This document shows positions 1 through 26,595 of a stretch of DNA of 26,595 nucleotides, piece after piece. Position 1 is the first letter of the stretch. Each line of letters begins with the position of its first letter. The stretch covers positions 1-26,595 of the IMG/VR virus record IMGVR_UViG_3300018421_000163; one strand, written 5' to 3'. This stretch comes from a virus. The notes beneath the pieces were generated by a model. The model saw nothing but the letters and a program-made list of their open reading frames with translations, made no database searches and was not told where the DNA came from. The position numbers and the translations under genes are program-made.

Positions 1-770
1 TCAGCAAGGATCTCAGAGGACAGAATGTTTGCCAGCTCTGACTCAGCATCCAGACCATGGATAGCACGCAGGTCTTGTGCGAGTTCGATGCTGTACTCTG
101 CCTTCAGAGCACGGGACTTAGCGGTAACAGCAATCTTTTCGATGCTGAAACCCATCTCGCGGAAGTCAGGAGCAGTGCCGTCGCTGTCCAGTGCCTCAGA
201 ATCCTGAGTGGACATTGCATGACCATTGGTGTAGTAACCCTGAACGGTGTTCTCGTTAGCGCCAGAGAAGGTGTCGTTCAGAACTGCAGGGTTGTCGCCT
301 GTCAGTGCATCAGCAGCACCTGTAACGTCGTTAGCACCTTGAGTACCCGACTGATTAGGATTGACTTCGTTGAAGAATGCTTCAGCACCTTGCTGACCAT
401 CGTAGCGAGCACGCATTGCGAAGATCAGTCCAGTAGGACCAGACATTGGTTGAACGCCTGCCAGGTCATATGCGACCAGATTAGGCATTGAACGGCGGAT
501 CAGTGAGATCAGAACAGGGTCGAAACCTGCAACAGGACCAGCAGCAGCAGCAGCGGTCGAGAAACCAGGAACACCAGCGCCAGCAGGATCGGTGTTAACG
601 GTTGGCAGTGCTTCCGAAAGAATTTGACGCTCTTCGCGGATTACACGCTCTTGGTTTTCAAGCAGGATGGAAGTGACAGCTTTCTTGTAGTTATCTTCAA
701 TCTTTGGAAGATCACCGTGCTCAAGAACAGGTGCCCACTTCTCCTGGAGGTGTTGGGACATGCCTAACAT
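1..770 (-). CDS. gp23: Major capsid protein gp23, N-terminal part (3' end cut by the window edge)
   Basis: This gene encodes the shell protein that forms the hexamers of the T4-type prohead. About 256 codons are visible and the reading frame is open through base 1, so roughly the C-terminal half lies outside. The protein begins MLGMSQHLQEKWAPVLEH, the usual start style of marine T4-like gp23, and continues with SLIRRSMPNLVAYDLAGVQP and TGLIFAMRARYDG, which are typical of the family. I chose the ATG at 770 because an AGGAGAA ribosome site (777-783) sits 6-8 bases upstream; Met4 at 761 would leave it too far away. T4 gp23 loses an N-terminal peptide to gp21 after an (I/L)-x-E motif; here ILSE, ending at Glu53 and followed by Ala, is a fitting site (inference). 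The gene is clearly GC-richer than the other head genes. It lies 37 bases after gp22. Identity is near certain. Confidence 0.97.
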   Translation of the reverse strand, partial: MLGMSQHLQEKWAPVLEHGDLPKIEDNYKKAVTSILLENQERVIREERQILSEALPTVNTDPAGAGVPGFSTAAAAAGPVAGFDPVLISLIRRSMPNLVAYDLAGVQPMSGPTGLIFAMRARYDGQQGAEAFFNEVNPNQSGTQGANDVTGAADALTGDNPAVLNDTFSGANENTVQGYYTNGHAMSTQDSEALDSDGTAPDFREMGFSIEKIAVTAKSRALKAEYSIELAQDLRAIHGLDAESELANILSSEILA

Positions 771-4369: not shown

Positions 4370-5002
4370 TTACGAAAGTGCCGTATTACGGGTGGTGAGT
4401 TCACCATAACTATCTGGATCTGCACCTGCATCAAAGTACTGATACTGGAATTCAACATCAAATTCTTCAATCTGATCGTTGCTATCAAAAGCAAGGTTGA
4501 TAGCACCTACGCTGCTTGGCCAAGCACCAATCAGTTTATATGCTCTCAGATTTGCATTAGGATCATTACCAGTACCACCAGCAGTAGTAATATCTTTTGA
4601 CTTTTGAACAATATCAATATCCTGGAAGAATGCTCCAGATGCATTATCTCCACCAAAGTTTAAAGTACCAAGGTTTTCATCAACCTTGTTACCAAGGTTT
4701 ACCCATTGCTCAAATGCTCTTCTCAGATCAAAGTCCTTAGTGTTATAGAAGGTTGCGGTCCAAGATTCAAAGGTTCTATCACCAGGAATCTTGAGGAAAC
4801 GACCTCTAAAAGGAACTTCAATAACTCCCTGACTATGACCAGGGAGTGCTGCTGATCTGCAGAGGAAACCAGTTTTTGCGGTTAACTCTGAACCAGAAGG
4901 AACATTTACTAATGCTGCTGATGGGAATTTGACTGAAACCTCATAAAGGTTGGGGCGAACCCCACCCTTTAATTGAGTTTTGAATTTCGTGATGTTTGAC
5001 AT
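4370..5002 (-). CDS. gp19: Tail tube protein gp19
   Basis: This protein stacks as hexameric rings into the inner tail tube through which DNA passes. It is 210 residues long, larger than T4 gp19 (163) but as expected for marine T4-likes. Family features are the N-terminal MSNITKFKTQLKGGVRPNLY, then FLCRSAALPGHSQGVIEVPF and GRFLKIPGDRTFESWTATFY, a long strand-rich core, and a C-terminal FDVEFQYQYFD strand. It follows the sheath gene directly, as in T4, and has a strong AAGGAGAT site at 5011-5018 as well as its own late promoter word at 5024-5031. That suits a protein needed in high copy number. Confidence 0.95.
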   Translation of the reverse strand: MSNITKFKTQLKGGVRPNLYEVSVKFPSAALVNVPSGSELTAKTGFLCRSAALPGHSQGVIEVPFRGRFLKIPGDRTFESWTATFYNTKDFDLRRAFEQWVNLGNKVDENLGTLNFGGDNASGAFFQDIDIVQKSKDITTAGGTGNDPNANLRAYKLIGAWPSSVGAINLAFDSNDQIEEFDVEFQYQYFDAGADPDSYGELTTRNTALS

Positions 5003-5023: not shown

Positions 5024-5031
5024 TATTTATC
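5024..5031 (-). promoter_or_regulatory. Putative late promoter GATAAATA before gp19
   Basis: The minus strand reads GATAAATA. The word shares bases with the TGA stop of gp18 (5030-5032) and lies just before the AAGGAGAT ribosome site of gp19. Confidence 0.65.
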
Positions 5032-7780
5032 AGCGGGCAACAACTTCAGAGAAGCTGATTCCAGTTCTCGTAGCAACAAATGTCAGCGTAATGAAGTTAA
5101 TAGAACGTGCTGGTTGAATATAAATATCAGCAACAAACTCGTTCTGATCAATAACTGCTGAAGTATTATTTGTTGAGTCGCAAACAACCAAGAAGTCATA
5201 AAGACCTCTTCTTGCTTGAACATCACGGAGGAATGGTTCAACAACACCCTTGAATACGTTTCTTGTGGTTTCGTCGTTGATTTCAAACAGTTGTGCTTTT
5301 GCTGCTTGTTCAATTGCCTTTTCTACAACCAAGAACAGACGACGGACGTTAATTCTGTCGAATGCAGATGGGTTAGCAAGTGCAGTTTTATCACCAAAGA
5401 GAACAGCACCTTGACCTGGGAATACAGCGATTGGGTTGATTCTGTTGGAATACAACTCATCTCTATCTAACTTGCTTGGGTTCCATGCAAGTTTAGCAAT
5501 ATTGCGAATGCCACCTCTTGAGAAACCTGCAGGTGAGAACCATGGTTCTGCACTGATTGCAGTGCTTGCTACCAGACCAGCAACGTCACTGTTGCAAGGA
5601 ATGTAACGATATACATCGTTCCAACGGTCATACACATACTTGTAGTTTGAATCAAGTACTGCGTATGAAGTGCTGGTAACTTGTGAGTAGAATCTCTTCA
5701 GGTTCTTAACAATTTCTCTGTTTGTAAGAACTAAACCACTATCAGAAATGATATTTCCTTTATGTGGTGAGAGGAATGCAACGCAATCTTGTCTTGTAGT
5801 AGCAAGACCAGCAAGGTAAGTTGCTTTTAATCTGGTATCCTCCTCGCTAGAGAGTCCAGGACCCATAAGCAGGTAATCTAATGATACTGTCTCAAGATCT
5901 GCAAATGATTCATATGCATTGTTTACATCAGTAACTGTAACATTCCATGCTCCACTTGGGAGGGTATCATAATCTTCGCCACTGGTTAATCTAAAGCTCT
6001 TAGCACCTACGGGTGCGAATGCAGCGGTTTTGTTTTGATATTCAAAAACAGTATCACCTGCGTATACATATCTACTTCCAGTTGAAACTACTCCTTTGTA
6101 GTAGTTAGATCCGCCTTGAGCACCTCTTGCATCTTTTGCTTTTGAAGCATACAGGAATGTTTCAAGAATGGTGTTTCTTGCACCAGAGATTGAACCATCT
6201 TCATCAACAACTGCAACGTGTACGCTGTCTCTTACTTCTACTCCACCGTAGAAAGCTTCTGCATCTGCAGATGCCAAAGGACGTGCTACAACTGCTGCCC
6301 AGGTTAAACCTGATCCTTGATACAGTTCTTTAGTTGCATACCACTGTTCGCCATCATCTAATGAATCTGCAAGGATTGCGTTTCCTGATGTAGCGCCAAT
6401 TGTCAGAACATCTTCTTCAACAAAGAGTTGCCCTGCTCCAGGAGCTGGTACATAAGAACCATTACTTTCAGTAATAATTACGTGAACATCAGTGTAAGTA
6501 ATTGAATCAACGGTTGCTGTAGTTACGTCAATAACTTTACCGTACTTAGAACCACCGTTAGTAACGACAGCACCAACTGCAATGTTAGTTGCGTTTGATG
6601 GGGAATTAGAAGTCAATCTGAATGACTGTCTTGGTCCGTTATCAATGGTGCAAACTCTTAATGCATTACCCCAGATACCTGGAGTTTTTCCAGCAAATAA
6701 CCAACCGTTTGCATTTCCTGCATAGGAAGAATCATATACGTCGCTGTTGGAGATCTTGATTGCTGCTGCAGCGATTGTTGCAGTTGCAGTTGCAGTTACA
6801 CCAGGAGCAGGAAGTGATACAGTTAAACCAGTAGTATCACTGTAGTTACCAAAAGTGGTAACGTTAATTCCTGTTACAATTCCACTAGAATTTACGACTG
6901 CAGTTCCAGAGAATGGAGTGATTGCAGTTCCACCAGATACGCTAACTGGATATGAACCGTTTGGATCATAGTTTGTACCACCAGTGGTAACGGCAACTAC
7001 AACACCAGTTGGAGCATCAACAGTTAAGGTTGGTGCAGAAGTATAACCACTTCCACCAGTAAGGGTGATTTGGGTAAGTTCACCTGCAGCATTAATTTGA
7101 GCAGTTGCTTGACCACTAGTTCCACCACCACCAGAAACTGTAACGGTTGGTGCTGCAGAATAACCACTACCAGGATTGGTGATTGTTGCAGTTCCAGTTA
7201 AGGAACCAGCATCCAAGTTACCTGCACCAGCAGTTGCGGTTGCTGTAGTTCCTGCTGCAACAGATGCAAGAGCATTTTCACCTACAGGTGCAATCGTTAC
7301 GGCTGGAGCAGAAGTGTATCCAGAACCAGTTTGAGTGACCAGAACGCTAGTTACTCTTCCATTTGCATCGATATTTGCAACACCTTCTGCACCAGATCCA
7401 CCACCACCTGAGAAGGTTACTGCTGGATTAGAGGTGTACTTACCATTTGTTTGTGGATTGGTAATGGTGACCGATCCTACATAATTACCTACTCTAGCAA
7501 TAGAGTTTTTCAGATCATCAGTATCAATTCTGACGACTGAAAGAGTTCCACCGTAGGAAAGATAGTTGGTTGCAGACAACCAATACTCTGCATTGTTTTC
7601 TACGGGTTCGCCAAATTCTGCGATTAAATCTGCTTCTGAACCAATCAGAACTGGAGAACCAAGTTCTCCCTTTGCGAATGGTGCAGCAAAACCTGCGATA
7701 TTGTTGTTCGCAATATCTGCTCTGCCGTTGGTAAGGTCTTTTTCCCTAACAACAACTCCAGGGGAGCGTAAAGTTGCCAT
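5030..7780 (-). CDS. gp18: Contractile tail sheath protein gp18, with an inserted repeat domain
   Basis: This is the sheath subunit whose contraction drives the tube through the host envelope. It has 916 residues against 659 in T4. The N-terminal MATLRSPGVVVREKDLT and the C-terminal core (FLSPHKGNII; AWNPSKLDRDELYSNRINPI; GQGAVLFGDKTA; FDRINVRRLFLVVEKAIE; FEINDETTRNVFKGVVEPFL) are standard for phage sheaths; the C-terminal part is the conserved interlocking domain. Residues about 102-340 are an insertion of Gly/Ala/Thr-rich GSGYTSAP-type repeats between a strand SVVRID and the sheath segment IKISNSDVYD. It probably forms a surface-exposed beta domain. The start has an AAGGAGAT site (7785-7792) and a late promoter word 38 bases upstream. 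Identity is certain; the function of the insertion is unknown. Confidence 0.96.
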   Translation of the reverse strand: MATLRSPGVVVREKDLTNGRADIANNNIAGFAAPFAKGELGSPVLIGSEADLIAEFGEPVENNAEYWLSATNYLSYGGTLSVVRIDTDDLKNSIARVGNYVGSVTITNPQTNGKYTSNPAVTFSGGGGSGAEGVANIDANGRVTSVLVTQTGSGYTSAPAVTIAPVGENALASVAAGTTATATAGAGNLDAGSLTGTATITNPGSGYSAAPTVTVSGGGGTSGQATAQINAAGELTQITLTGGSGYTSAPTLTVDAPTGVVVAVTTGGTNYDPNGSYPVSVSGGTAITPFSGTAVVNSSGIVTGINVTTFGNYSDTTGLTVSLPAPGVTATATATIAAAAIKISNSDVYDSSYAGNANGWLFAGKTPGIWGNALRVCTIDNGPRQSFRLTSNSPSNATNIAVGAVVTNGGSKYGKVIDVTTATVDSITYTDVHVIITESNGSYVPAPGAGQLFVEEDVLTIGATSGNAILADSLDDGEQWYATKELYQGSGLTWAAVVARPLASADAEAFYGGVEVRDSVHVAVVDEDGSISGARNTILETFLYASKAKDARGAQGGSNYYKGVVSTGSRYVYAGDTVFEYQNKTAAFAPVGAKSFRLTSGEDYDTLPSGAWNVTVTDVNNAYESFADLETVSLDYLLMGPGLSSEEDTRLKATYLAGLATTRQDCVAFLSPHKGNIISDSGLVLTNREIVKNLKRFYSQVTSTSYAVLDSNYKYVYDRWNDVYRYIPCNSDVAGLVASTAISAEPWFSPAGFSRGGIRNIAKLAWNPSKLDRDELYSNRINPIAVFPGQGAVLFGDKTALANPSAFDRINVRRLFLVVEKAIEQAAKAQLFEINDETTRNVFKGVVEPFLRDVQARRGLYDFLVVCDSTNNTSAVIDQNEFVADIYIQPARSINFITLTFVATRTGISFSEVVAR
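6761..7477 (-). repeat. GSGYTSAP repeat domain inserted in gp18
   Basis: Within gp18 residues about 102-340, four or five imperfect units follow the pattern 'T-I-T-N/T-x-G-S-G-Y-T-S-A-P-x-V-T-V' and then a Gly/Ala-rich link with 'A-x-A-x-I-N-A-x-G-x-V/L-T'. Clear copies start near residues 110 (GKYTSNPAVTFSGG), 150 (TGSGYTSAPAVTI), 202 (PGSGYSAAPTVTVSGG) and 242 (GGSGYTSAPTLTV). The composition suggests stacked beta hairpins. The same motif recurs in the giant fiber gene. Confidence 0.8.
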
Positions 7781-14734: not shown

Positions 14735-17700
14735 TCAATCATCTGGGTCATCAATGTCCTCTGGTGGTTGTGCTTGACCATCAAACATGTTGGACTTGTT
14801 CTCGGGTTCTTCAGCAAGGAACGCTTCATATGTTGGATAATCATCTCCAGGGCGGCGATGTCTATCTGGTTCAAGGATAGTTCTACCTTCATCATCAGTC
14901 CAGTTTGCTTCTCTAATCTTAGCATCCTGACGTTCGGCAACAACCATCCAATCGATGGTGTCAGTACATGCAGGATCTTGTGCTTCGATAGTAACAATAC
15001 CTGCTGCAGTGACTGTAGCACGAACTGGTGTCCATCCTTGGTTATTGACAACAAATACTTGAGGATCTCTACAAAGAAGTTCCCATGTACCTGGAGTCAT
15101 TCCAACTGCAACGTCAATATTGACAGTAGCAGTTCCATTAACAAGTGCAACCTTATCTCTATAAATCAGATCAGGACGTGGACCCTCAACGAATGAGTGA
15201 ACCAGATCTTTGGTTTCTGTAAGTTCAGGAAGTGGGTGTGGGATGCGGAACGTACCAGATCCCTTAGTCAGTGTACCTGCGTGGTATGCATCACCATTTG
15301 ATCTGAAGTAGTGATAAAGGTTACCTGACCACTCACCGCAACTGTATCCAGAACAAGAGTAACCATAGATAGCAAATTCTTCATTGCTATCATCATTAAG
15401 GTGAAGTTCTAATCTAGAGACGTTACCAGATGGAGTTACAAATCTGAAACCGTATGGGTCAGAGTTTGTACCATAACCTGTCTGACGGAATCTAATAGTG
15501 TTAGTGGTGATTGTTGGAACACGCATCTCACCCGTGACATCCAAGTTAATACCAGACGCTGGGTTTGTACCGATACCAACACGACCAGAGAAGTAGTTCT
15601 GATCTTCATTTCTTACATACAGACCATAACGATACGACAAGTTAGTTGGATTATTTCCTGCACTATCTGTGGTGCCAACTGAGAATGTTAGTCCTCTAAT
15701 ATCGAAGTTGATGTACATGCCACGCATGTTGTAGCAGTTACCACCATCCATTCTGGTGTAAATATACGCACCGTAGGAAGCATTAACTGTAGTTCCTCTT
15801 ACTCTCTCTTCAGCGTCAACACCAACTCTATTATAAGTGTAAATACCGCACTTCCAGTTAGTTCTAGAACTATATCTAGTATCTTGATAGTTATACCAAC
15901 CGATCATCTGCCCAACATAACCAGCACCCTGAGAAGCAGAGTTCAATCCATTATATTGATCACTATTCATAACATACATGTTATCAACACGACCATTAGA
16001 ATAGTTTCTATTATAATTTTTGAAACCATACATATTCACCCATCTACCACCGTAGATGTTATATGAAAGTGATCTAATACCCTCAGAATATCCAATATAT
16101 GCATTCGCATAGTTTCTCTTATCAAGATAACCATGACGTGAATATGCATATGTCAGGTTTGGATACCAACTATCAAGGAACATGTCTTGTTGGTTACCAT
16201 TAGCACCATACATGATAGCGCCATAGTTCTGCCAACTCATAGAGAAGTCAGAATATACACCAATTTGACCAGTGTTGGTAATATTGTATGTAGAACTTCT
16301 TGTGGTGTCTACATAGAGTGCTTTACCACGCTCACCTGTACCTGCACCATTAGCGGGAACGGTTGTCGAATAAGGCAGTGCAGTTCCTTGTGGTGGGAGA
16401 TAGTAACAAGTAAATCTATCGTTCCAACCAACATCAAGAGCAACGTTTGCACCAGTGCCAGTGTTAAAAAGTCCAAGGCGATTCCAACGTCCTTTTACTC
16501 TTGCATTTGCTGGGCAATTGAATGTAAAGGTAGTATTTACAGTTCCACCTGCTTGCTCTGCAAAGTTATAAGTTCCTGCAGCAGTTGGAGTTTGAGTTGT
16601 AGCAAGTTCATCCCAACCTGGGTTTCTTACTCTTAAAAGGAATCTTTCTGGATATGGATTTGTATCTGAAGAATCTGGTCTATAGCAGTTAATGTTTCTA
16701 TTAAATGTACCAGAGTTTGCCCAATCAGTATCACCTTCTCCACCATTGGTTCCACCTGCTGCTGTACCAAGACCAGTGTTTACCAGAGTTAGTCCTTGGT
16801 TATACATGAACTTATGACCTTCTGCTGCTCCAGTCATGGAGTTTGCAGTGGTTGGTTCAACATAAACCCAGCAGTTTTGATCTACGTTATTAAAAGTAAA
16901 TACTCCAGTTCCAACACCATTTTCATCAAGAACTTCCGTTGCAGTTCTATTGTAGTTTAAAATCTCAATCTTAAGAATTCTATATCCGTCATCATCATAG
17001 TTTGCTCCAATAGGACCATACTGCTTTAATACATCTGCAGCAACAATCTTAGAGTCACCAGTGTTTACACCTTCACCTGTTGTAACAGAAGCAATGTTTG
17101 TATAGTAAATTGGTCTACCACCCTGAGTAGAACCTGAGGTTGCCTCAAAGTATCTACTCCAGTTTCTGTAGTATCCAACTGTTCTATGTAAATATTGAGT
17201 ACGCCATGAATGCATTTGACGGTTATTGTAATAACCTAACCAATATGTCAAGGACCAACCCGAATTTCGGTAGTCCATTTGCCAATACCCACGAAGCATA
17301 TCTGAAGTCGATGGACCCCAGTACATAATGCCAACATTGCTACGTAATCTTGTAGCACCATTTACATCGAGTTTTGCATAACCATCAAAACTACCAGTAA
17401 GATTAATAGCAGCTCTGTAACTATCAAGATAGAAGATATCTCTTAATTGTTCTGTAGAACTATCATAGTTTCTGCCGTATGCTCTAAATCTCCACTGCTC
17501 TGGTCCAATCTTATCAGATCTTGAACGCATCCAAAGTGCTTCGTTAGTACCACCAGATTGATTGGAAGGTACTCTCCATCTAAAATACCAATAGTTAGCA
17601 TCAGTTTGAGTTGTAAATCTCCAGCGATACTCGCCATTGCTGGATCTTAATTCTGGACCTAGTTCTGGTTGGTTTGCATTTGACCCATTATCAAGAGTTA

Positions 17701-18256
17701 CAATATCTAAAGGTGAGTTTGGTGCTGTTGTTTTAATGCCGACACGCTTGTCAGCACGAACTGACATAACAACCGCATCAGATCCTAGATTAGTTGTATT
17801 GTTTCCCGAATCGCCAGCATATACGTCTAATCTTTGACCAACACCTGAAACGTTTGAAGATGAAAATCCAGTAGAATATCTTGGGTTTGTATTATCAGGA
17901 AAGGTTAATACTGGGGATGCTGGATTTGCACTATCTGCATGAATATGTAATCTAGAGATTGCGCTAGATCCACCAACCGCAGTTTTACCACCATATGGTC
18001 CTAACTTTGCAATGCCATCTAATCCAGCAGACATAACTGGAATACCAGAAATGTCATTGGCAGCAAAGGAATCACCACTAGTAGTGTTAGTATCTAATGT
18101 AAACAGCTGACCTAATGCAGCATTAAAAGATATAGCATTGTCATCCAAAACTTTCAGAGTAATTGGATTATTATCAAATCCTTTAAACTCAATTTTTGGT
18201 TCTTCCGTGTCTCCCACATTGGGAGTTATTAAAATATCCTTGTCAGTATTTGCCAT
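14735..18256 (-). CDS. Large tail-fiber-like structural protein (1173 aa)
   Basis: This is a probable adhesin. Residues 1-90 hold a marine-phage fiber attachment pattern: ISFNAALGQLFTLD, then NDISGIPVMSAGLDG and AKLGPYGG. Fiber-type turns of the form 'vGIGtxxPxxxLdV' appear near residue 170 (RVGIKTTAPNSPLDIV) and near residue 900 (GRVGIGTNPASGINLDV). The centre is unusually rich in Tyr, Trp, Asn, Arg and Gly (for example SWQNYGAIMYGANGNQQ and SYNIYGGRWVNMYGFKNYN), as in beta-rich receptor-binding shafts. The C-terminal 130 residues contain FRIPHPLPELTETKDLVHSF, then VEGPRPDLIYRDKVAL and DTIDWMVVAERQDAKI, a domain found at the ends of many environmental phage fibers, and finish in an acidic tail. 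A perfect late promoter word precedes it. The exact position on the virion is unknown. Confidence 0.8.
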   Translation of the reverse strand: MANTDKDILITPNVGDTEEPKIEFKGFDNNPITLKVLDDNAISFNAALGQLFTLDTNTTSGDSFAANDISGIPVMSAGLDGIAKLGPYGGKTAVGGSSAISRLHIHADSANPASPVLTFPDNTNPRYSTGFSSSNVSGVGQRLDVYAGDSGNNTTNLGSDAVVMSVRADKRVGIKTTAPNSPLDIVTLDNGSNANQPELGPELRSSNGEYRWRFTTQTDANYWYFRWRVPSNQSGGTNEALWMRSRSDKIGPEQWRFRAYGRNYDSSTEQLRDIFYLDSYRAAINLTGSFDGYAKLDVNGATRLRSNVGIMYWGPSTSDMLRGYWQMDYRNSGWSLTYWLGYYNNRQMHSWRTQYLHRTVGYYRNWSRYFEATSGSTQGGRPIYYTNIASVTTGEGVNTGDSKIVAADVLKQYGPIGANYDDDGYRILKIEILNYNRTATEVLDENGVGTGVFTFNNVDQNCWVYVEPTTANSMTGAAEGHKFMYNQGLTLVNTGLGTAAGGTNGGEGDTDWANSGTFNRNINCYRPDSSDTNPYPERFLLRVRNPGWDELATTQTPTAAGTYNFAEQAGGTVNTTFTFNCPANARVKGRWNRLGLFNTGTGANVALDVGWNDRFTCYYLPPQGTALPYSTTVPANGAGTGERGKALYVDTTRSSTYNITNTGQIGVYSDFSMSWQNYGAIMYGANGNQQDMFLDSWYPNLTYAYSRHGYLDKRNYANAYIGYSEGIRSLSYNIYGGRWVNMYGFKNYNRNYSNGRVDNMYVMNSDQYNGLNSASQGAGYVGQMIGWYNYQDTRYSSRTNWKCGIYTYNRVGVDAEERVRGTTVNASYGAYIYTRMDGGNCYNMRGMYINFDIRGLTFSVGTTDSAGNNPTNLSYRYGLYVRNEDQNYFSGRVGIGTNPASGINLDVTGEMRVPTITTNTIRFRQTGYGTNSDPYGFRFVTPSGNVSRLELHLNDDSNEEFAIYGYSCSGYSCGEWSGNLYHYFRSNGDAYHAGTLTKGSGTFRIPHPLPELTETKDLVHSFVEGPRPDLIYRDKVALVNGTATVNIDVAVGMTPGTWELLCRDPQVFVVNNQGWTPVRATVTAAGIVTIEAQDPACTDTIDWMVVAERQDAKIREANWTDDEGRTILEPDRHRRPGDDYPTYEAFLAEEPENKSNMFDGQAQPPEDIDDPDD

Positions 18257-18283: not shown

Positions 18284-18291
18284 TATTTATA
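18284..18291 (-). promoter_or_regulatory. Putative late promoter TATAAATA before the 1173-aa fiber
   Basis: The minus strand reads TATAAATA, and the TAA stop of the upstream LamG gene (18287-18289) lies inside the word. It is 28 bases before the fiber ATG at 18256. Confidence 0.7.
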
Positions 18292-19045
18292 ATGCGCTGA
18301 AACGAGGAGCAAGGGCATTATAATTTGCCTTTACTTCGTTTTGGGATAATGCCTTAGTGTAGTAATAGTAATTTGCAACATCACCATTTAAATAATGCTG
18401 GAAGTGTCCATTTCTTCTCATAAGACGAATTACTGCACCCCCATCAACTCTGGGAATAAAATCTGTATCTTCTGCTGTCAATTGTCCATTGATATAAAAT
18501 TTTAGATTTCCACTATTAGCACCATAGGTGCCCGAAGTTTGAGTAAATACAAAACAATAGTTTGTCCAGATGCTATAATATGCAGTAATATTAGGAGTCA
18601 TTTGGGACCAACCATTTGTACCATTAGCACGAAAATAATCAGAAATTGGTTCTAAATGAATACCTCTTTCGTCACCACTTCCCTGTTTGTGAAACCAACC
18701 AACACCATTACCAGATTGAGTTCCAATAACTTTCAACCATCCATTTACAGTCCAACCATTGTTCCCTGGTGCTAATTCTGAAGAGTGATTGATAGTCCAG
18801 TGAGCACCATTAGTTGCTGTTGCATTAGGATCAGTACCGCCATATGTATTTTGTGGTCTATGTTCAAAATATCCTGCAGAATTCCAAGTTGAATATGAAC
18901 CAGCATCAGTCCTAGTTGCATGATTATCATTTCCAGACAGATCATACCAAATATCACCAGTACCAGGATAACTCCTAGGATTGGTTGCATCTAAACATAA
19001 TACTAAATTGTCTAAGACCATCTTGGTCCCGTGATATGCAGTCAT
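18287..19045 (-). CDS. LamG/concanavalin-like virion protein 1 (252 aa)
   Basis: The N-terminus MVLDNLVLCLDATNPRSYPG is followed by IWYDLSGNDNHAT, the entry pattern of LamG-type jelly-roll domains in phage and bacterial surface proteins. Later strands (GWTVNGWLKVIG; YYSIWTNYCFVFTQTSG; GNLKFYINGQL; VIRLMRRNGHFQHYLNGDVA) complete a sandwich of the usual size. It ends with YYYTKALSQNEVKANYNAL, the common closing helix. There is no signal peptide and no membrane segment. It is probably a carbohydrate- or glycan-contacting virion lectin, judged from the fold; ligand residues cannot be read off. It lies 22 bases after a second LamG gene and has its own promoter word. Confidence 0.75.
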   Translation of the reverse strand: MTAYHGTKMVLDNLVLCLDATNPRSYPGTGDIWYDLSGNDNHATRTDAGSYSTWNSAGYFEHRPQNTYGGTDPNATATNGAHWTINHSSELAPGNNGWTVNGWLKVIGTQSGNGVGWFHKQGSGDERGIHLEPISDYFRANGTNGWSQMTPNITAYYSIWTNYCFVFTQTSGTYGANSGNLKFYINGQLTAEDTDFIPRVDGGAVIRLMRRNGHFQHYLNGDVANYYYYTKALSQNEVKANYNALAPRFSAL

Positions 19046-19064: not shown

Positions 19065-19072
19065 TATTTAGA
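19065..19072 (-). promoter_or_regulatory. Putative late promoter TCTAAATA before LamG protein 1
   Basis: The minus strand reads TCTAAATA. The TAA stop of the second LamG gene (19068-19070) is inside the word. A purine-rich AAAAGG follows, about 11 bases before the ATG at 19045. Confidence 0.5.
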
Positions 19073-19805
19073 TGAAGCGAGCAGAGTACGCATCATATAA
19101 TTGCTTACACTCCCTAGCATTTAATGCTTTGTCATGCCAAAAGAAAGAATTAAGTTTGCCATCAAAACGAAGACAGCATGGGTTTCTACCAATGTTTGGA
19201 GGACTTCCTTGCATAGTGGTTTGTGCTCCAAATGCACCAACATCTCCTAATAATTCACCATCATGATAAAGATATAATGTTGGACCATTACCATATTCGT
19301 TACCGCGATCAAACACTCCAGTTGCCAAGTGCCAGTTTCCATCACCAGTTCCAGCACTAGTAAATGCAATTCCTTCCCGATAAGCGAGACCCATCAACCA
19401 ATAGTAACCTCCACTGGAAGGTCCAAATCTAAATCCATCTGCACTACCAGCATTAGCAACTAAACTAATTTGCCCACCAGAACCATCATGAGTAAACCAA
19501 AAAGAAATTGAAAAACTTCCAGTTCTGGTAAGACCCATTGAGTCCATATTTGCTGGTGAATTAAATCCCAAAGGAGCATTATATGATCTTGGTGTAGCAT
19601 CTCCATTGTCGTTACCACCAAAGTCCCAATAATTGTGGTTTGGTTGTGTAATTCTTGGGACAGTTCCTACAATATCATAATGATTTTCATTACCACTTAA
19701 ATCATAAATTTTAGATCCAGATCCAGGAAAACTGTTATCATTATTTGCATCCAATAAAATTTTCAAATCATCTAAAGGGACTCTCGTCCCATATACAGTA
19801 CTCAT
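19068..19805 (-). CDS. LamG/concanavalin-like virion protein 2 (245 aa)
   Basis: This is a paralogue-like neighbour of the 252-aa LamG protein. It has the same start pattern (VPLDDLKILLDANNDNSFPG, then KIYDLSGNENHYD) and the same closing helix (DKALNARECKQLYDAYSARF). Between them are typical strands: TGSFSISFWFTHDGSGGQI, then NWHLATGVFDRGN and PTLYLYHDGELLGDVGAFG. It starts with an excellent AAGGAGG site (19813-19819), and its ATG overlaps the TGA stop of the giant fiber gene by four bases (ATGA), so the two are translationally coupled. It is probably a virion surface lectin. Assignment to the fold is good; a role in host binding is inferred. Confidence 0.75.
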   Translation of the reverse strand: MSTVYGTRVPLDDLKILLDANNDNSFPGSGSKIYDLSGNENHYDIVGTVPRITQPNHNYWDFGGNDNGDATPRSYNAPLGFNSPANMDSMGLTRTGSFSISFWFTHDGSGGQISLVANAGSADGFRFGPSSGGYYWLMGLAYREGIAFTSAGTGDGNWHLATGVFDRGNEYGNGPTLYLYHDGELLGDVGAFGAQTTMQGSPPNIGRNPCCLRFDGKLNSFFWHDKALNARECKQLYDAYSARFI

Positions 19806-22800
19806 TCCTGAACCTCCTTAATTTCCATTTCTACTTCCATCTTAGGAACATCCTTACGCTCTGCTTGTACAAAGTAGAACGCCGCCCCGCCACCAGTCGT
19901 GACTTTATTGTCAGCGACATCAATTACCCAGCGATTGCCAGAGTCACCAATTGCAGTCAGTTGAACTGTAATGGTGTCTTCATCAACAAGTTGTAACCAG
20001 TAATCTGGTAATGTAATTACACCATCTGTGACACGTCCTCTGACGTATACACCATGTTCTGGACCCTCAAGTGAACCATGCTGAAGTTTGTAATTTTCCT
20101 TAGTTGGGTGATCGATAAGGAAGGACTTACTCTTAGCAGAGAAAGTACCGTTAACAGTCAGTGTGTGCGTAGGAACGTTTGTTCCAGTGTACATACCAAC
20201 TCTTGATGTTGTTACATCAGCAGCATCAGATCTTTGATACATGCTGAATACATAATCACCATTACTATTAGTAATTCTAAAGATATCATTTGGTGAAGAT
20301 GCACCGTCATTAAAGAGAACCCATCTAGTGGTTCCTTGACGTGCAAACGCCATACCAATGTCTCTGTCAAACGCATTATCGAGAGTTAAGAATGATGGAT
20401 AACCACTATCAACATCAAAGTTCTTAAAGAGAACGCCTGCACCAGATGCTGCTTGATTCCAACCTGCACCACCAGAAGCATTAACCGTAAGTTTTGATGT
20501 GATGTTTGCAGCAGTGACTCCGATACCTACGTTACCATTGTAACGGATTCTAACTCTCTCATAGAAAGTAGTATCACGTACACCAAATACTAAGTCAGTT
20601 TGATAATCACCTGCCTTAACTGCAGCAATTCGTGCAGAGGAGATTCTTGCACCATCAGATGCTCTACCTGCTTGTAACCACAGACCAGCAAACGTTGAGG
20701 AGTTTCCTGCTTCAGTATTATATACTGCAAGTTCTTGTGGATATGGTTCGTATGAATATTGACCAGTAACACTTGCTGACCATGCAGTTGAATCAGTAAC
20801 TTGCTGCTTCAACTGACCAGTCAAAGTACCACCAGACAGTGGTAAGTTCTCAGAAGCAGAACCAATCAGATCACCATAAGCATAGTTAAATCCAATGTTG
20901 CCATTTGAATCTCTGATTACACCCTTACTATTTGCTCCTGTATCATATACTTGGTTGACTGAATCAATACCAACACCAAAGGTAATGTTACCTGCGTGCC
21001 AAATGTTATTACCATTGACTTGAGCAGCATTTGCCTGGAAGTTGATAGTACCAGTACCAACAGTAGAAGTACCGCCAGTAGCAATAATCCTTACATCATA
21101 ACCATCTGGGTTTGGATCACCACTTGGAAGTGTGAATGCGTTACCACTTGAATTGAATCTAATCTGACCAGATCTTGCTTCACTTTCGTTACCAAGAGTA
21201 ATTACTGGATTGCCAGTACCATCGGTATGTAACTTATGCTTATTAATTGAATATGCATTAGATGATGTAATTCCAAAGTCAGCAATTGGGAAGTATGTTG
21301 CAGGTTCTACTGCAGTACCAAACTTAACAACAGTATTGTTTAAGATACCTGAGATGAGTTCTGCAGTTACTCTAGTGTGAGATAACTGAGAGGATCTCAA
21401 CCATGTTACTCCATTTTGAGATCCATCAGCTGGACCATGAATTGGAATAATGTTTGGACGTGGACTTACATATGTAAATCCAACACTACCATCAGTTGCA
21501 GTTCCAGTATTATGAGATGGTCCATTACCAGATGATGAAGTTGTACCAGCAGTAGTTACCTCATACAGGTTCTGATTAGCAATTACTAAAGTACCAATAC
21601 CCAGAACTAAATTATTATCATATACTTTTGGAGTTCTGATGAACTCATCAGTATTATAGATGTTGTTATTGTATTGAACTTCTCTACTTGGTGGAATACC
21701 AGTAGAAACAAATCTAAAGGCAGCAGTACCATTTGTAACGGTTCCACTTGTATGTGAAAGTGAAACTGTTCCAGATTCACCTGCAGTAGTTACTTCATAG
21801 AGATATACATCTTCTCCTAATGTTCCAGCAATGATGCTATAAACTAATTGACCCTGAGTGTATAAAGTTTCTGGATCAAAATCGACTGCAGTTACTGCAC
21901 TATAACCAACTTCCCATACGTAATTTGCTTCATACTCTGGAACTACATCAAGAATGTTAATAGTACCCTGGTTAACATTAGTATCAGTGTACAGATTCAA
22001 AGTGAAGAATGTTTGACCTAATGCATTTGCACTGGAACTTCCAGTGTCAAGCATTTGAAGGTCATCTGCAGTAAGAAGAAGGTTATCAATAATAAATTCA
22101 TAAATGGAACCATTATTAATCTGAACATTAGGATTAAATCTAGTAATACTAACTGAATCAGTAATGCTCTTTGGTGACAAGTTACCAGGCAATCTTCTAT
22201 TGCTTAAGTAACCATAATTCATGTTTGTTCCTGATCTTAAGAAGGTATCTGATTTACCTCTTAAAAATCCTGCATCTAAATCAGATCCTGCACCATCATT
22301 TCCACTAGACCATAACTTATACCAAGAACTCCACTGGTTAGCACTAACTGTAGCAAGAGTTGCAGTTAATTCTGCTCCAAGAGAACCTGCGTAGTCATAT
22401 ACAGCAGTTCCACTTGTTGCTTGTGCTGTTCCGCTAGTGTGTGATGGTTCTTGAGTTCCTGAAGTACCTGCAGTAACTACATCATACAATCTTCCAAAAC
22501 CAATCGTTTCTGGAACATATACTTTTTGACCAATATTATAAGATTGACCAGATGCCCATCTTACCCAACCAGAATCATATTGACGACCATTATCTACACC
22601 AAATATATTGGTTGGAAGTACGCAAGTGAATGTTGGAGGTGCATTACCAGTAAGGTTATATCCATAACCAGTATCAACAATAATTACTGAAGTGATCTTG
22701 CCATTAGTTCCAACGGTAATATTTGCTTTAAGACCATGACCCTCACCACCACCAAGTTCTACTGCCTTGTATTCGCCAGGAGTATAACCATTACCTGATT

Positions 22801-25800
22801 TTGTAATTGCAATGGAACCAACAAAGTTTCCACCATGACCGCGAATCCACTGGTTATTGTTATCAGTAAATGCAAACTGAGTGATTGCATAACCATCAAA
22901 TGTTGTTCCAGTACCGATACCTCTTCTGGTTGTATACTTGGTATGATCAGTTCCGCCGTCTAAAAGACCATCATCGGTGTTCTTTTTCCATGCAGCAGAT
23001 GTACCAAGAGGTGCGTTAGATGGTGCAAGAGTTTGCTGTCTAACGTCAGAGATTGTAAGATTCAGTGCAGTACCTGCTTGACCCGTAATATCAATGATAT
23101 ATTCGCCAGAAAGGTAGTCAGGACCAAGAGTACCCGCATCAATGTTAGATGCGTCTGTATAGAACTCTTTATCTTCTCCATCGAGTTGGTCAGCATCCAG
23201 ACCAGATCCTGCACCTTCTTTCAGAGTAATTGCACCATCTGGACCAAAGTTCCACTGCTCTTTGTAGAATCTCCAAACACCCAAATTACTAAAGTCATCA
23301 CCAGCAATGGTTAAGTTATCACCACGTTTGATGTCAATTGTAATATCATTAAAGATCTTAGATGTATCTGCAACTTTTGCTTCCAGATCTGCATCATCGT
23401 CTCCATTTGGATTCGTGATTGCTGCAGGTAATGTTGTAATTGAGAAGTCAGCGTTATAATTCAGACCACCTTCTACAACAGCAACTCTTGAAATTACACC
23501 ATCTGCAATAGTTGCGGTAGCGGCAGCACTGTTACCAACACCAGTGAATTCAATGTTAGGTGCGGAAGTAAATCCACTACCACCATCAAGAATTCTAATC
23601 TCGGTAACTGAACCATTGGTTGTAATTGCTTTTGCAACAACATTAACCAAAACATTTCCGTTGCCATCTTTGAAGATGACTGTTGGTGGTTCTTCAGCAA
23701 ATACAACTGGAGTAACGTTTTCGTCAACAACAAGGCGATAACCAGTACCACCGTTGGTGACTGCGATACTCTTGACGGCACCATCACTAACTGTGAAGTC
23801 AGCAAGGAATCCTTCTCCTGCTCCACCAACTACTTGCTGAGATTGTAAAGTTCCTGTTCCTCCACCCAAAGTAGAAATACCATAATTTTCACCACCGTCA
23901 ATAATTTCAACAGATCCAATATATGTACTTCTTTGATTTGAAGAACTGATAACAAGTGGTGTCTCTGCAGCATTCTTTCTGATAGAAGAAACAACAGGAA
24001 CGAACTTAGAATCACCTCTCAGATAAGTGTTAGAACTTGCTGGGTAATTAGAAGTGATGTTTGCTAATCTTGCTGGATTGATAATACCAGTGGTAATAGA
24101 ACCAGCGTCAATGTTAGTTGATGTTAACTGAACCCAGTTTGATTCAAGTTGACCAGAAGTATTAACTACGTTAGTAACTGCTACAGTTTGAGGTGTACCA
24201 CTAAAATCTTGAATATCATCTGCAACTGCAAATTTAACATTACCAATTAAAGTAACATGTAATCTACTTCTAATTGAAACTGTAGCACTTGCACCAGTTC
24301 CACCAGTTCCAGTGTTATCAATATTAAGAACTGGTACTGAAGTATATCCAGAACCTCTGTTAGTAACGTTGATAACCGAAACACGGTTATTGTCAATTTG
24401 TGCAGTAACAGTTGCTTGCGTTCCGACGTATTCAAAATCTACAGTTCCATCAGTTTGGGTTCCAGATGTATGTGAAGGTCCACTTCCAGAAGTCGCAGAA
24501 GTTCCATTAGTTGCTACTGTATACAGGTTGCCGCCGTTTGCAATTTGCTGACCTGCAGTATATACTGTGTTATTTGCATACTCAATACCAACTGTAATTG
24601 TAGGTGCTGTTGTATAAGAATTACCACCACTAATAATACTTACATTTGGAGAAAGTTCACCGTGAGTATACTCAATAACAGTACCTTGTGCGGTACTTGG
24701 TGAACCACTTACAACATCATTTACACTAAAGGTATATGATGCATCTGGGGTAAACTCAAGAATTTGAGCATAGGTATCATTGTTCAGAATGTAGGAGATA
24801 TTGTTTGGTGCCAATTGAATTACAATGTCACCTGCAAGTGCTCCTTCAAGATCAAGACGTGCCTGAAGGTCTGCAACAGTAAAGACGTTAAATGGTCTCA
24901 GTGCTGGAATCTGGTCAATATTAATACGACCAGTAGAATCTAACTGTACAAGATTACCTGGGGATGGAGTTGTACCATATGGTTTGTTCTTGTAGTTACC
25001 ATAGTTATTGGTAATGTATTCTCTGATAGATGCCTGAGTTGCCAGAATTCTATCGCTATTCAGTTCTGTAGAACCGAGAGTAATATCACCAAGTTTCTCA
25101 TCTCCAGAGAAACCAACAATTTCAATATCACCACCCTTAATCTTCAGGAACGCAACTTCTTCGATTTCAACAGTACCACCGAAGGTGATGTTACCAGTTC
25201 TGTTCTCAATGTTAGCGAAGTAACCAACCTTGAAGTTACCAAGTTCATCAGTACCTGATGCATAAACACGACCATTCTGTTGTGATACCTGTTCGTAATC
25301 TGCAGTATCTTCCGATCCTCTCTTACCACCATTCTGTGGAAGAGCATTGTAGTCAACACCAGAACCTGAGAATTCCCAGGTGTGTGAGGATGAGTTACAA
25401 ATAGATGGTCTATGAAGATTGATCGGGTGATTAAGTAACTTGTAACGAGTTGAGTTATCAAGTAAGAATTGACCATTATCTCTTACTGCACCAGATGGAA
25501 GTGGTGTTGTAACTGTTGGGTTATCAAGAATTTCATCAATCAGGGTATTCAGGGTATCGATTGCTGCCTGAACGTTAGCACAATCAGAAGTGCTATACAG
25601 ATCAGAAGCAGTTCCTACTGCACCTGCAGGTGATGATACATCATGAATTACTGCAAGATCAATATATGGTGCAACAGTTGTATACTGTGCAACATAATAT
25701 CCAGCAGTTGTTTCTGCTCCAGTCAGGGTAGTTCCAATTTCTCTGAGTTGATTGTTAATTGCTTTCTTACACAGAGATACTGCTTCATCAAATACTGCCT

Positions 25801-26595
25801 TTGTTCCTGCAGCATATCCAGTAATATGTGCAACTGTATTGTTTTCAATATATGACTTACCTGCATCCCAAGTAAATGCGTTACCATCATCTCTGATGTC
25901 ATCTGCAATCGCCTGAACAATCAGTTCAGTATCTCTAATACACTTAGCATAATTTGCTTGGAATGAATATACGTTGCTATACAGAACAGTATAGAATGCT
26001 TCTTCTGCAATGTACTTCTTGTTATTTTCAATAAGAACAGCAGCATCTGTATATCTATTTTCATTACCAATTAGATACATTTGAGCATCTGCTTGTACTA
26101 ATGCATCTGTATTGGTTGCTTGAATAACAGCATCAATAAAGTATTCTGGATTATTATTGCCTGATCTCAGAACGGGTTTGATGCCATCAACTTTAATAAT
26201 ATAGTGCTCTCTTGGTTCTGAATTTAATTGACTAATATCAAACGTTGGTACACCAATTAAGTCAAAAGTGACATCATCGACTTTACCAATATCAAAAGAA
26301 TATGCGTTTTCTCTGAATCCAGTTGCTCTCAGTGAGAAAATACCAAAGTTAGATGCTGAGTTGGTCAGGGATGCATATCCACCACTTTCAACAACACAAC
26401 CATCATAAGTAAAGATACAGAAGACCGAAACCAACTGGGTGTAACCATCATTGATGACTCGATAACCTACACCACCGAAAGAGATGATTGTAAACGCAGC
26501 AGCAACCATCGACTTACCTTGTGGTGGCAGTCCAGGTCTGATAACGTTAGGATCAGCAACCTTAGCACCGTCAATCTCACATCCAGATCCACCAA
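19802..26595 (-). CDS. Giant tail-fiber-like protein (5' end outside the window)
   Basis: 2263 residues are visible and the frame is open through base 26595: 28 codons without a stop precede the first internal Met at 26509 (GGSGCEIDGAKVADPNVIRP is upstream). The true start is therefore outside. From N to C, residues are numbered from that Met. First comes a beta-rich part (FGGVGYRVINDGYTQLVSVF). A helical insert (about 155-335; IENNKKYIAEEAFYTVLY) follows, then a conserved marine fiber core (HRPSICNSSSHTWEFSGSG; GTDELGNFKVGYFANIEN). GxGY repeats alternate with four Cys-free modules ending 'PSHTSGT..DGT..F.YV'. A fiber turn YNGNVGIGVTAANI and the C-terminal domain KSFLIDHPTKENYKLQHGSL complete it. 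It is a probable long fiber or baseplate-attached adhesin. The stop overlaps the next start. Confidence 0.85.
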   Translation of the reverse strand, partial: GGSGCEIDGAKVADPNVIRPGLPPQGKSMVAAAFTIISFGGVGYRVINDGYTQLVSVFCIFTYDGCVVESGGYASLTNSASNFGIFSLRATGFRENAYSFDIGKVDDVTFDLIGVPTFDISQLNSEPREHYIIKVDGIKPVLRSGNNNPEYFIDAVIQATNTDALVQADAQMYLIGNENRYTDAAVLIENNKKYIAEEAFYTVLYSNVYSFQANYAKCIRDTELIVQAIADDIRDDGNAFTWDAGKSYIENNTVAHITGYAAGTKAVFDEAVSLCKKAINNQLREIGTTLTGAETTAGYYVAQYTTVAPYIDLAVIHDVSSPAGAVGTASDLYSTSDCANVQAAIDTLNTLIDEILDNPTVTTPLPSGAVRDNGQFLLDNSTRYKLLNHPINLHRPSICNSSSHTWEFSGSGVDYNALPQNGGKRGSEDTADYEQVSQQNGRVYASGTDELGNFKVGYFANIENRTGNITFGGTVEIEEVAFLKIKGGDIEIVGFSGDEKLGDITLGSTELNSDRILATQASIREYITNNYGNYKNKPYGTTPSPGNLVQLDSTGRINIDQIPALRPFNVFTVADLQARLDLEGALAGDIVIQLAPNNISYILNNDTYAQILEFTPDASYTFSVNDVVSGSPSTAQGTVIEYTHGELSPNVSIISGGNSYTTAPTITVGIEYANNTVYTAGQQIANGGNLYTVATNGTSATSGSGPSHTSGTQTDGTVDFEYVGTQATVTAQIDNNRVSVINVTNRGSGYTSVPVLNIDNTGTGGTGASATVSIRSRLHVTLIGNVKFAVADDIQDFSGTPQTVAVTNVVNTSGQLESNWVQLTSTNIDAGSITTGIINPARLANITSNYPASSNTYLRGDSKFVPVVSSIRKNAAETPLVISSSNQRSTYIGSVEIIDGGENYGISTLGGGTGTLQSQQVVGGAGEGFLADFTVSDGAVKSIAVTNGGTGYRLVVDENVTPVVFAEEPPTVIFKDGNGNVLVNVVAKAITTNGSVTEIRILDGGSGFTSAPNIEFTGVGNSAAATATIADGVISRVAVVEGGLNYNADFSITTLPAAITNPNGDDDADLEAKVADTSKIFNDITIDIKRGDNLTIAGDDFSNLGVWRFYKEQWNFGPDGAITLKEGAGSGLDADQLDGEDKEFYTDASNIDAGTLGPDYLSGEYIIDITGQAGTALNLTISDVRQQTLAPSNAPLGTSAAWKKNTDDGLLDGGTDHTKYTTRRGIGTGTTFDGYAITQFAFTDNNNQWIRGHGGNFVGSIAITKSGNGYTPGEYKAVELGGGEGHGLKANITVGTNGKITSVIIVDTGYGYNLTGNAPPTFTCVLPTNIFGVDNGRQYDSGWVRWASGQSYNIGQKVYVPETIGFGRLYDVVTAGTSGTQEPSHTSGTAQATSGTAVYDYAGSLGAELTATLATVSANQWSSWYKLWSSGNDGAGSDLDAGFLRGKSDTFLRSGTNMNYGYLSNRRLPGNLSPKSITDSVSITRFNPNVQINNGSIYEFIIDNLLLTADDLQMLDTGSSSANALGQTFFTLNLYTDTNVNQGTINILDVVPEYEANYVWEVGYSAVTAVDFDPETLYTQGQLVYSIIAGTLGEDVYLYEVTTAGESGTVSLSHTSGTVTNGTAAFRFVSTGIPPSREVQYNNNIYNTDEFIRTPKVYDNNLVLGIGTLVIANQNLYEVTTAGTTSSSGNGPSHNTGTATDGSVGFTYVSPRPNIIPIHGPADGSQNGVTWLRSSQLSHTRVTAELISGILNNTVVKFGTAVEPATYFPIADFGITSSNAYSINKHKLHTDGTGNPVITLGNESEARSGQIRFNSSGNAFTLPSGDPNPDGYDVRIIATGGTSTVGTGTINFQANAAQVNGNNIWHAGNITFGVGIDSVNQVYDTGANSKGVIRDSNGNIGFNYAYGDLIGSASENLPLSGGTLTGQLKQQVTDSTAWSASVTGQYSYEPYPQELAVYNTEAGNSSTFAGLWLQAGRASDGARISSARIAAVKAGDYQTDLVFGVRDTTFYERVRIRYNGNVGIGVTAANITSKLTVNASGGAGWNQAASGAGVLFKNFDVDSGYPSFLTLDNAFDRDIGMAFARQGTTRWVLFNDGASSPNDIFRITNSNGDYVFSMYQRSDAADVTTSRVGMYTGTNVPTHTLTVNGTFSAKSKSFLIDHPTKENYKLQHGSLEGPEHGVYVRGRVTDGVITLPDYWLQLVDEDTITVQLTAIGDSGNRWVIDVADNKVTTGGGAAFYFVQAERKDVPKMEVEMEIKEVQE
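21463..21610 (-). repeat. CBM5/12-like module D of the giant fiber
   Basis: This copy reads LVIANQNLYEVTTAGTTSSS, then GNGPSHNTGTATDGSVGFTY. It lies only about 90 bases after module C, so C and D form a tandem pair. Confidence 0.6.
21700..21870 (-). repeat. CBM5/12-like module C of the giant fiber
   Basis: This copy reads YTQGQLVYSIIAGTLGEDVY, then LYEVTTAGESGTVSLSHTSG, and ends AAFRFVST. It is the most divergent copy in the 'PSHTSGT' segment, with Leu-Ser replacing Pro-Ser. Confidence 0.6.
22385..22550 (-). repeat. CBM5/12-like module B of the giant fiber
   Basis: This copy reads YNIGQKVYVPETIGFGRLYD, then VVTAGTSGTQEPSHTSGTAQ, and ends AVYDYAGS. It has a longer loop between the two halves than module A and follows a run of GxGY repeats. 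Confidence 0.6.
22655..24650 (-). repeat. GxGY repeat region of the giant fiber
   Basis: Scattered units of the type 'v.vt.gGsGYtsaP.v.i.g.g...ga.A.a.i..g.i..v.v' occur near 24577-24650 (SGGNSYTTAPTITVG), 24270-24395 (NRGSGYTSVPVLNIDNTG), 23450-23920 (TNGGTGYRL, LDGGSGFTSAPNIEFTGVG, EGGLNYN) and 22655-22830 (KSGNGYTPGEY, VDTGYGYN). They match the units inserted in gp18. Module A (24420-24570) lies between two of them. Confidence 0.75.
24420..24570 (-). repeat. CBM5/12-like module A of the giant fiber
   Basis: The module reads VYTAGQQIANGGNLYTVATN and then GPSHTSGTQTDGTVDFEYVG. The pattern 'Y..GQ.V...g.LY.V...GTSg..pSHTSGT.tDGT..F.YvG' recurs three more times in this gene. It resembles small carbohydrate-binding modules (CBM5/12 type) often present in phage fibers. 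The assignment is by eye. Confidence 0.65.

Follow-up and report, generated by a model that had tools for sequence, protein, structure and literature searches.

A three-module GSGYTSAP array inserted in a viral tail sheath as a candidate outward surface-contact layer

We analysed a 26,595-nucleotide stretch of viral DNA (IMG/VR record IMGVR_UViG_3300018421_000163, positions 1 to 26,595; hereafter the window), whose gp18 gene (5030..7780, minus strand) encodes a tail sheath protein of 916 amino acids (aa). Within this sheath lies an inserted repeat domain, aa 102-340 (6761..7477, minus), made of three tandem GSGYTSAP modules of about 70 residues each. It is highly probable that these are three exposed, self-folding modules at the site where the T4 sheath carries its domain I. 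We give an even chance to the fuller proposal that this three-copy plug-in array acts as an outward, low-affinity surface-contact layer. The same module occurs in other tail proteins of diverse phages, and a fibre-like protein of the window carries it as well.

The insert interrupts an otherwise ordinary T4-type sheath

An earlier note, made from the letters of the window alone, had described a low-complexity repeat domain of about 240 residues between otherwise standard sheath segments. Both parts of this description held: the domain spans exactly aa 102-340, or 239 residues, and its flanks on either side are ordinary T4-type sheath by Pfam, PHROG and PDB comparison. The gp18 open reading frame (ORF) and its translation match the PHROG tail sheath family (E 5.3e-117), and a phmmer search of the PDB returned T4-type gp18 (best E 5.7e-86) over aa 3-210 and 612-914. 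The N-terminal segment before the insert (aa 1-101; 7478..7780, minus), which aligns with 12 reference sheaths, resembles PF22671 Gp18_domIII_N at E 1e-5, with 26.1 bits, just below the cut-off of 27. The conserved C-terminal core (aa 601-916; 5033..5980, minus) contains Phage_sheath_1, PF04984, at aa 617-800 (E 1.6e-10; 41.5 bits, cut-off 31.4) and Phage_sheath_1C, PF17482, at aa 804-904 (E 3.2e-17; 62.9 bits, cut-off 26.9). Between insert and core, aa 341-600 (5981..6760, minus) correspond, by alignment and by the published T4 domain limits, to the region after T4 domain I (PMC3004832; here and below, papers are cited from portions of their text). The junction at aa 101-102 is clean, in that insert-less cyanophage references run from 'LKNA' to 'IKNxDDY' where the window has the insert. 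Without it gp18 would measure 677 aa, within the 633-801 aa of the reference sheaths (T4 659), so the insert accounts for the unusual length of the protein, as the note had proposed.

The three modules were delimited with a module hidden Markov model (HMM) as module 1, aa 103-170 (7271..7474, minus; E 1.7e-20), module 2, aa 198-262 (6995..7189, minus; E 3.5e-22), and module 3, aa 262-331 (6788..6997, minus; E 1e-14), the most diverged of them. The repetition is confirmed at the protein level, where hhalign paired aa 101-190 with aa 195-266 at a probability of 98.4% (pairwise E 3.7e-14); the third copy matched the other two more weakly, at 26-44%. Repetition in the DNA is slight, Tandem Repeats Finder (TRF) giving only two short arrays at 6777-6797 and 6880-6937, and the module copies are therefore old. 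Glycine, serine, threonine and alanine make up 60% of the insert, which has 10 charged and 10 aromatic residues among its 239 and no cysteine, tryptophan, histidine or methionine.

The beta-type character that the note had read from the sequence is borne out by structure prediction. An AlphaFold2 model of aa 100-342, built from 30 aligned sequences, has a mean predicted local distance difference test (pLDDT) score of 95.6 and a predicted template modelling score of 0.78. It contains 20 strands and no helix of at least four residues, and is thus nearly all beta at high confidence.

The insert marks a single clade of sheaths

Scanning IMG/VR with gp18 gave 62 loci. We examined 57 sequences, the window and 56 loci, leaving out fragments that start at query residue 317 or later (L052, L054-L058). 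The insert is present in 53 of the 57, with exactly three modules in each, and the four relatives L059-L062 have no module; the comparison of presence and copy number that the note had called for therefore shows a fixed array within the clade. One locus (L001) is identical to the window. Non-identical insert-bearing members share 48-65% identity with the window across the insert, 62-82% across the N-terminus and 63-78% across the C-terminal core. Upstream of the module-less sheath of one relative, an ORF cut by the contig end (L060:1-486, plus strand) has one module and may, by position, encode a neck protein.

Among 44 sheath cores placed in a tree, the 23 rows with the insert cluster together with support of 100/100, nested among 15 insert-less rows; the five T4-group rows are separate, and the branch of Marzo is long and uncertain. 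This topology fits gain of the insert on one branch, separate from T4 domain I; an ancestral insert followed by several losses is possible. The note had also considered that the segment might be a standard domain of all marine T4-like sheaths. None of the 15 other cyanophage- or pelagiphage-type sheaths of the tree has it. Two further scans covered 159 sheaths, the Marzo-type ones from the best 80 of 89 matches and the Mosig-type ones being the best 80 of more than 600, and the module was found in 0 of these 80 Mosig-type sheaths. The reference alignment, the tree and both scans rule out a standard domain of all related sheaths.

In a collection of phage genomes gp18 has matches in 2586 records, all of them below 60% identity, and no isolate of the insert clade was found there. 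Photo_RC (psbA/psbD-type) genes occur in three of six long clade records, which is why we regard the clade as cyanophage-like; the other three had no match and may be fragments. The hosts are presumably Synechococcus or Prochlorococcus. ORFs of 2530-3510 aa bearing the module are found in four of the six.

Among 50 full-length insert-bearing members there are 42 distinct sequences. The ratio of nonsynonymous to synonymous substitution rates (dN/dS) has a median of 0.27 over the insert, 0.28 over aa 342-600, and 0.09 and 0.13 over two parts of the core, and no pair exceeds 1 (155 of 1176 pairs had a usable dS). The insert is under purifying selection. Together with the sparse TRF arrays and the 42 distinct carriers, this selection rules out a recent DNA repeat expansion or an assembly artefact.

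The insertion site corresponds to that of T4 gp18 domain I

In T4 gp18, domain I comprises residues 98-188, set within domain II; it is a six-stranded barrel with a helix that protrudes outward, makes no subunit contacts, and binds the baseplate and the retracted long tail fibres, retraction being inhibited by three point changes in it (PMC3004832). By alignment, the insert of the window maps to this same site. The phmmer alignment to T4-type gp18 continues through the junction (window 3-210 to chain 2-208). For the flank alignments T4 domain I had been cut out at its published limits, so that these confirm the flanks alone. VIA, applied to a weak full-length model, aligned residue 102 to residue 99 of PDB 3FOA (Z 8.2, root-mean-square deviation 15.7, 282 residues). 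Since the site is that of a protruding, contact-free domain, we strongly infer that the insert is exposed at the tail surface, where the note had placed it. The note's hundred or more subunits per tail fits T4, whose sheath has 138 copies in 23 rings (PMC3004832); if the tail of this virus had the same count, it would show 414 modules.

The contact-free nature of T4 domain I also bears on whether the array could stabilise the tail. Charge-poor, rich in glycine and threonine and confidently predicted, the modules might meet one another on the outer face of the extended sheath, and so cement it or shield it from proteases. Extra sheath domains have been proposed as tail stabilisers (PMC9230969) and an inserted domain stabilises the YSD1 tail tube (PMC8718954). 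Such a role is unlikely, however, given that T4 domain I makes no subunit contacts at this same site, that insert-less sheaths are widespread and that the copy number at the site varies between lineages.

We also compared the module with T4 domain I by profile. An HMM trained on 1073 ORFs, no T4-group locus among them, was run against 251 T4-group ORFs (E <= 10); only gp18 matched, and only in the first half of domain I. This T4-free model matched 19 of 23 T4-group sheaths, five of them near-copies of T4, and left four unmatched. T4 itself scored E 4.2e-5 and 44RR 1.4e-3, the remaining domain E-values ranging from 0.006 to 2.8. In controls, the best domain E was 0.11 among 5020 shuffled and 0.42 among 1324 reversed ORFs, with sequence E-values down to 0.091 and 0.034, respectively. 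By domain E, 12 of the 19 matches are thus better than any control and seven are not. The shared location in domain I is accordingly a stronger point for the relationship than the E-values. Profiles slid along gp18 peaked at domain I for four of five queries, the broadest at 29.4 against at most 18.5 elsewhere, while the module 1 profile alone did not discriminate (21.0 against 20.1 in controls); the five share data and are not independent. The similarity spans about 45 residues in most T4-group sheaths. T4 gp18 was not among the matches at E <= 10 when module profiles A1 and A3 were searched against PDB sequences (one locus with ambiguous letters, L003, was left out of profiles A1 and A2), and we obtained no superposition of the insert on domain I. 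Suggestive though short of proof, these results make T4 domain I a probable distant, single-copy relative of the module.

Modules in the fibre of the same genome, and fibre docking as the main rival reading

The window also encodes a 2235-aa fibre-like protein (19802..26509, minus; PHROG 5342, tail fibre). The module HMM gave seven partly overlapping hits in it, at E 1.1e-10 to 4e-2, which amount to at least five modules, at 22652-22816, 23528-23689, 23735-23914, 24305-24469 and 24587-24754 (all minus); one fibre module was also recovered by a separate genome search. The C-terminal region of the protein is shared with phrog_28536 and phrog_17490.

On the main rival reading the insert is an enlarged domain I for fibre and baseplate docking, which would hold retracted long fibres along the tail and contact the baseplate. 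With the module present in the fibre too, the contact could be module to module. The insertion site, the T4 precedent for binding retracted fibres and baseplate, and the way in which the T4-free HMM singles out domain I all speak for docking, and in cyanophage A-1(L), a phage of a different kind, the arm of a long fibre is folded back to run along the sheath (PMC10966104). Yet two further sheath sites and lambda-like tail tubes also have the module (see below), and docking is less likely there; sheaths without domain I are common, and the similarity to T4 domain I covers only some 45 residues and was missed by both PDB-sequence profile searches. We regard docking as rather unlikely, and as quite unlikely its more elaborate form, in which T4 domain I would be a worn-down single copy from a widespread family that plugs time and again into the outermost tail layer, and in which the sheath array and fibre modules of these cyanophages would bind each other, making the tail surface a homotypic dock for storing and releasing fibres.

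The module recurs across phage tail proteins

Beyond the clade, the module was found in 20 of 79 Marzo-type sheaths, which represent 15 distinct proteins. It lies at or near the domain I site in nine of the 20, near T4 residue 242 in five and near T4 residue 325 in six. Six of the nine are copies of one type with one module, two (L142, L143) have four module hits, and the placement of the last (L162) is approximate, its computed junction falling at T4 residue 80 and its first module hit being weak. These two four-hit sheaths (ORF from 3450, plus strand, 899 residues) are apparently a separate expansion like that of the window. All but one of the 20 sites fall inside T4 domain II (88-97, 189-345) or at its borders; this domain is part of a protease-resistant piece exposed to solution (PMC3004832). 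Stenotrophomonas phage isolates share the Marzo sheath at 98.6-100% identity (15 records, among the matches listed), and these phages of Marzo type thus provide isolates with the module in their sheath.

When bacterial and archaeal genomes were scanned with one module, 79 loci came up; the module HMM matched every one of them, and in 53 the best ORF is longer than 700 aa. We annotated 12 ORFs from 11 of these loci, chosen for size or look, and found phage tail proteins at seven. Those on bacterial contigs comprise three sheaths, of phrog_23 (L293, L364) or phrog_205 (L359), and four lambda-like tail tubes matching PF16460 (L358, L323) or phrog_158 (L318, L326). Of the others, one matches a glucanase (L313) and three have no Pfam match (L300, L328, L357). 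The phrog_23 sheaths we take, by eye, to belong to P2-like prophages; one of them, in a bacterial metagenome-assembled genome, lies in two overlapping reading frames (L293:2485-4255, plus strand), through a frameshift, decay or an assembly error. An ORF with 11 module hits (L349:1-3456, plus strand) is on a contig titled Candidatus Methanoperedens, an archaeon.

The tail tube of Pseudomonas protegens phage PseuP_224 has the module, and the homologous tubes of D3 and SC_8 lack it while being 65% and 75% identical to it, respectively, outside the module gap. PHROG profiles place the module in neck (Hc2), baseplate wedge, hub and fibre families. Predicted viral structures that share the fold of the insert gave 37 matches at E <= 0.001; many are unnamed, and those with a name are, among others, neck, baseplate wedge, baseplate hub and fibre proteins, for the most part from cyanophages or uncultured phages, with one from a giant virus. 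Its occurrence in sheath and tube would put the module on what is normally the outermost layer of the tail.

Curated libraries returned nothing convincing for the module, and a domain known to Pfam or NCBIfam was rejected on these grounds. The insert of the window met only FTP in Pfam, at E 0.24, and NCBIfam gave no convincing match to three window sequences. For a set of 65 modules the best Pfam match was Peptidase_S3 (E 3e-4 in two modules), which we judged stray, and Big_1, Big_2, I-set and FN3 were absent from the 13 Pfam families at E <= 0.1. A tblastn search of phages with the insert alone found no matches, perhaps masked by low-complexity filtering. A VIA fold search of the insert stayed at background level (best Z 5.1), with immunoglobulin (Ig)-domain matches included. 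Among PDB sequences the nearest was a tailspike, at E 0.02; residues 431-506 of tailspike Dpo31/Dpo36 (PDB 8CK1 / 28LX) form a GSGY-type stretch that might supply a structural template.

The module thus recurs as a plug-in, and its distribution suggests a part for surface decoration that is widely shared yet goes unnamed in the curated family libraries searched. Its patchiness (20 of 79 Marzo-type sheaths, on or off in homologous tail tubes) would also suit a near-neutral plug-in, one that spreads because it folds by itself and is tolerated at exposed loops, with no strong function. For the sheath array of the window we consider this very unlikely, as its median dN/dS is 0.27 and three copies are fixed in 53 sheaths with inserts down to 48% identical to that of the window.

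A proposed role in weak surface adhesion

We propose that a promiscuous beta module, in an array of three copies, forms the sheath insert, set in the loop that carries domain I in T4. The array would point outward along the whole tail, would be dispensable for sheath assembly and contraction, and would form a low-affinity layer for contact with surface material, of the host envelope or otherwise, a role already suggested for the Ig-like domains of phages. Sheaths, tail tubes, necks, baseplates and fibres would all receive this type of decoration from the module family. By analogy, weak surface adhesion appears the likeliest role, with fibre docking as its main rival; the adhesive or protective coat that the note had suggested is a hypothesis at this stage. 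Among Ig-like domains, which are the nearest analogue and sit on tail surfaces, loss of that of lambda lowers activity 100-fold while tails still form, and that of the SPP1 tail is not needed, tails forming without it (PMC8718954, PMC9022992).

Several observations weigh against this proposal. The full-length gp18 model is poor (pLDDT 62.5), although the insert within it keeps block means of 72-91, and the outward orientation therefore rests on homology. A Foldseek search of the PDB with the insert gave a best E of 1.3, with T4 gp18 no better; we make no claim of a new fold, for which a missing structural match is no evidence. Aromatic and charged residues, 10 of each, are few, which argues against a classical sugar-binding site. 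Finally, a review passage describes the Ig-like domain of T5 as indispensable if the tube is to form (PMC8718954, PMC9022992), and an outer domain is thus not in every case an accessory.

One uncurated module family connects three sheath types with lambda-like tail tubes and with neck, baseplate and fibre proteins, and it may offer an origin for T4 domain I. The natural pair of tubes with and without the module, PseuP_224 and D3, and the Stenotrophomonas phages of Marzo type with the module in their sheath make the role of outer tail domains directly testable.

Neighbouring genes

The tail tube gene adjoins gp18: the ORF at 4370-5002 resembles PF06841 gp19 (E 3.4e-4) at a sub-threshold 20.9 bits, the cut-off being 28.2, and in T4 and annotated cyanophage records the tube gene likewise comes after gp18. 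Of the other neighbours, gp14 has Pfam support, and the names gp13, gp15, gp17, gp20 and gp21 are presumptive, assigned by eye. Beside gp13 and the fibre cluster, a 1173-aa protein (14735-18256, minus) matches phrog_17834 near its C-terminus (E 1e-8) and has no Pfam match. Two neighbours of about 250 aa beside the fibre (18287-19045 and 19068-19805, minus) look alike and, by eye, LamG/concanavalin-like; they are a possible duplicated receptor-binding pair.

Comparison with known tail decorations

A literature search of titles and abstract openings in one library found no description of this repeat on tails. Among its closest counterparts is T4 gp18 domain I (PDB 3FOA), with which the insert shares the insertion point, the protein and a beta-rich make-up, and whose N-terminal half has weak but specific profile similarity to the module. 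T4, however, has one copy of about 90 residues with a helix, whereas the window has three, in 239 residues, with intact GSGYTSAP motifs. The Ig-like decoration domains (Big_1, Big_2, I-set and FN3, as in lambda gpV, T5 pb6 and SPP1 gp17.1*) are likewise promiscuous, beta, on the outer virion and variably present (PMC8718954, PMC9022992). Known tail-tube Ig domains are mostly C-terminal, whereas the array of the window is internal and tandem, and none of the 65 modules matches an Ig or FN3 family of Pfam. The type 3 multi-domain sheaths of Evseev et al. (2022; PMC9230969) are also large, with extra beta domains away from the tube and, in some, at least five domains; the portions of that paper cited here make no mention of the repeat, of a three-module cyanophage clade or of a module shared by sheath, tube and fibre. 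The whiskers of vB_PcaM_CBB also decorate the whole length of a contractile tail and have been proposed to contact the host, but they are 119-nm hairs whose gene origin is given as not known (PMC5259590). Outer-tail decoration and multi-domain sheaths are thus already known, and the repeat described here is a variant of them.

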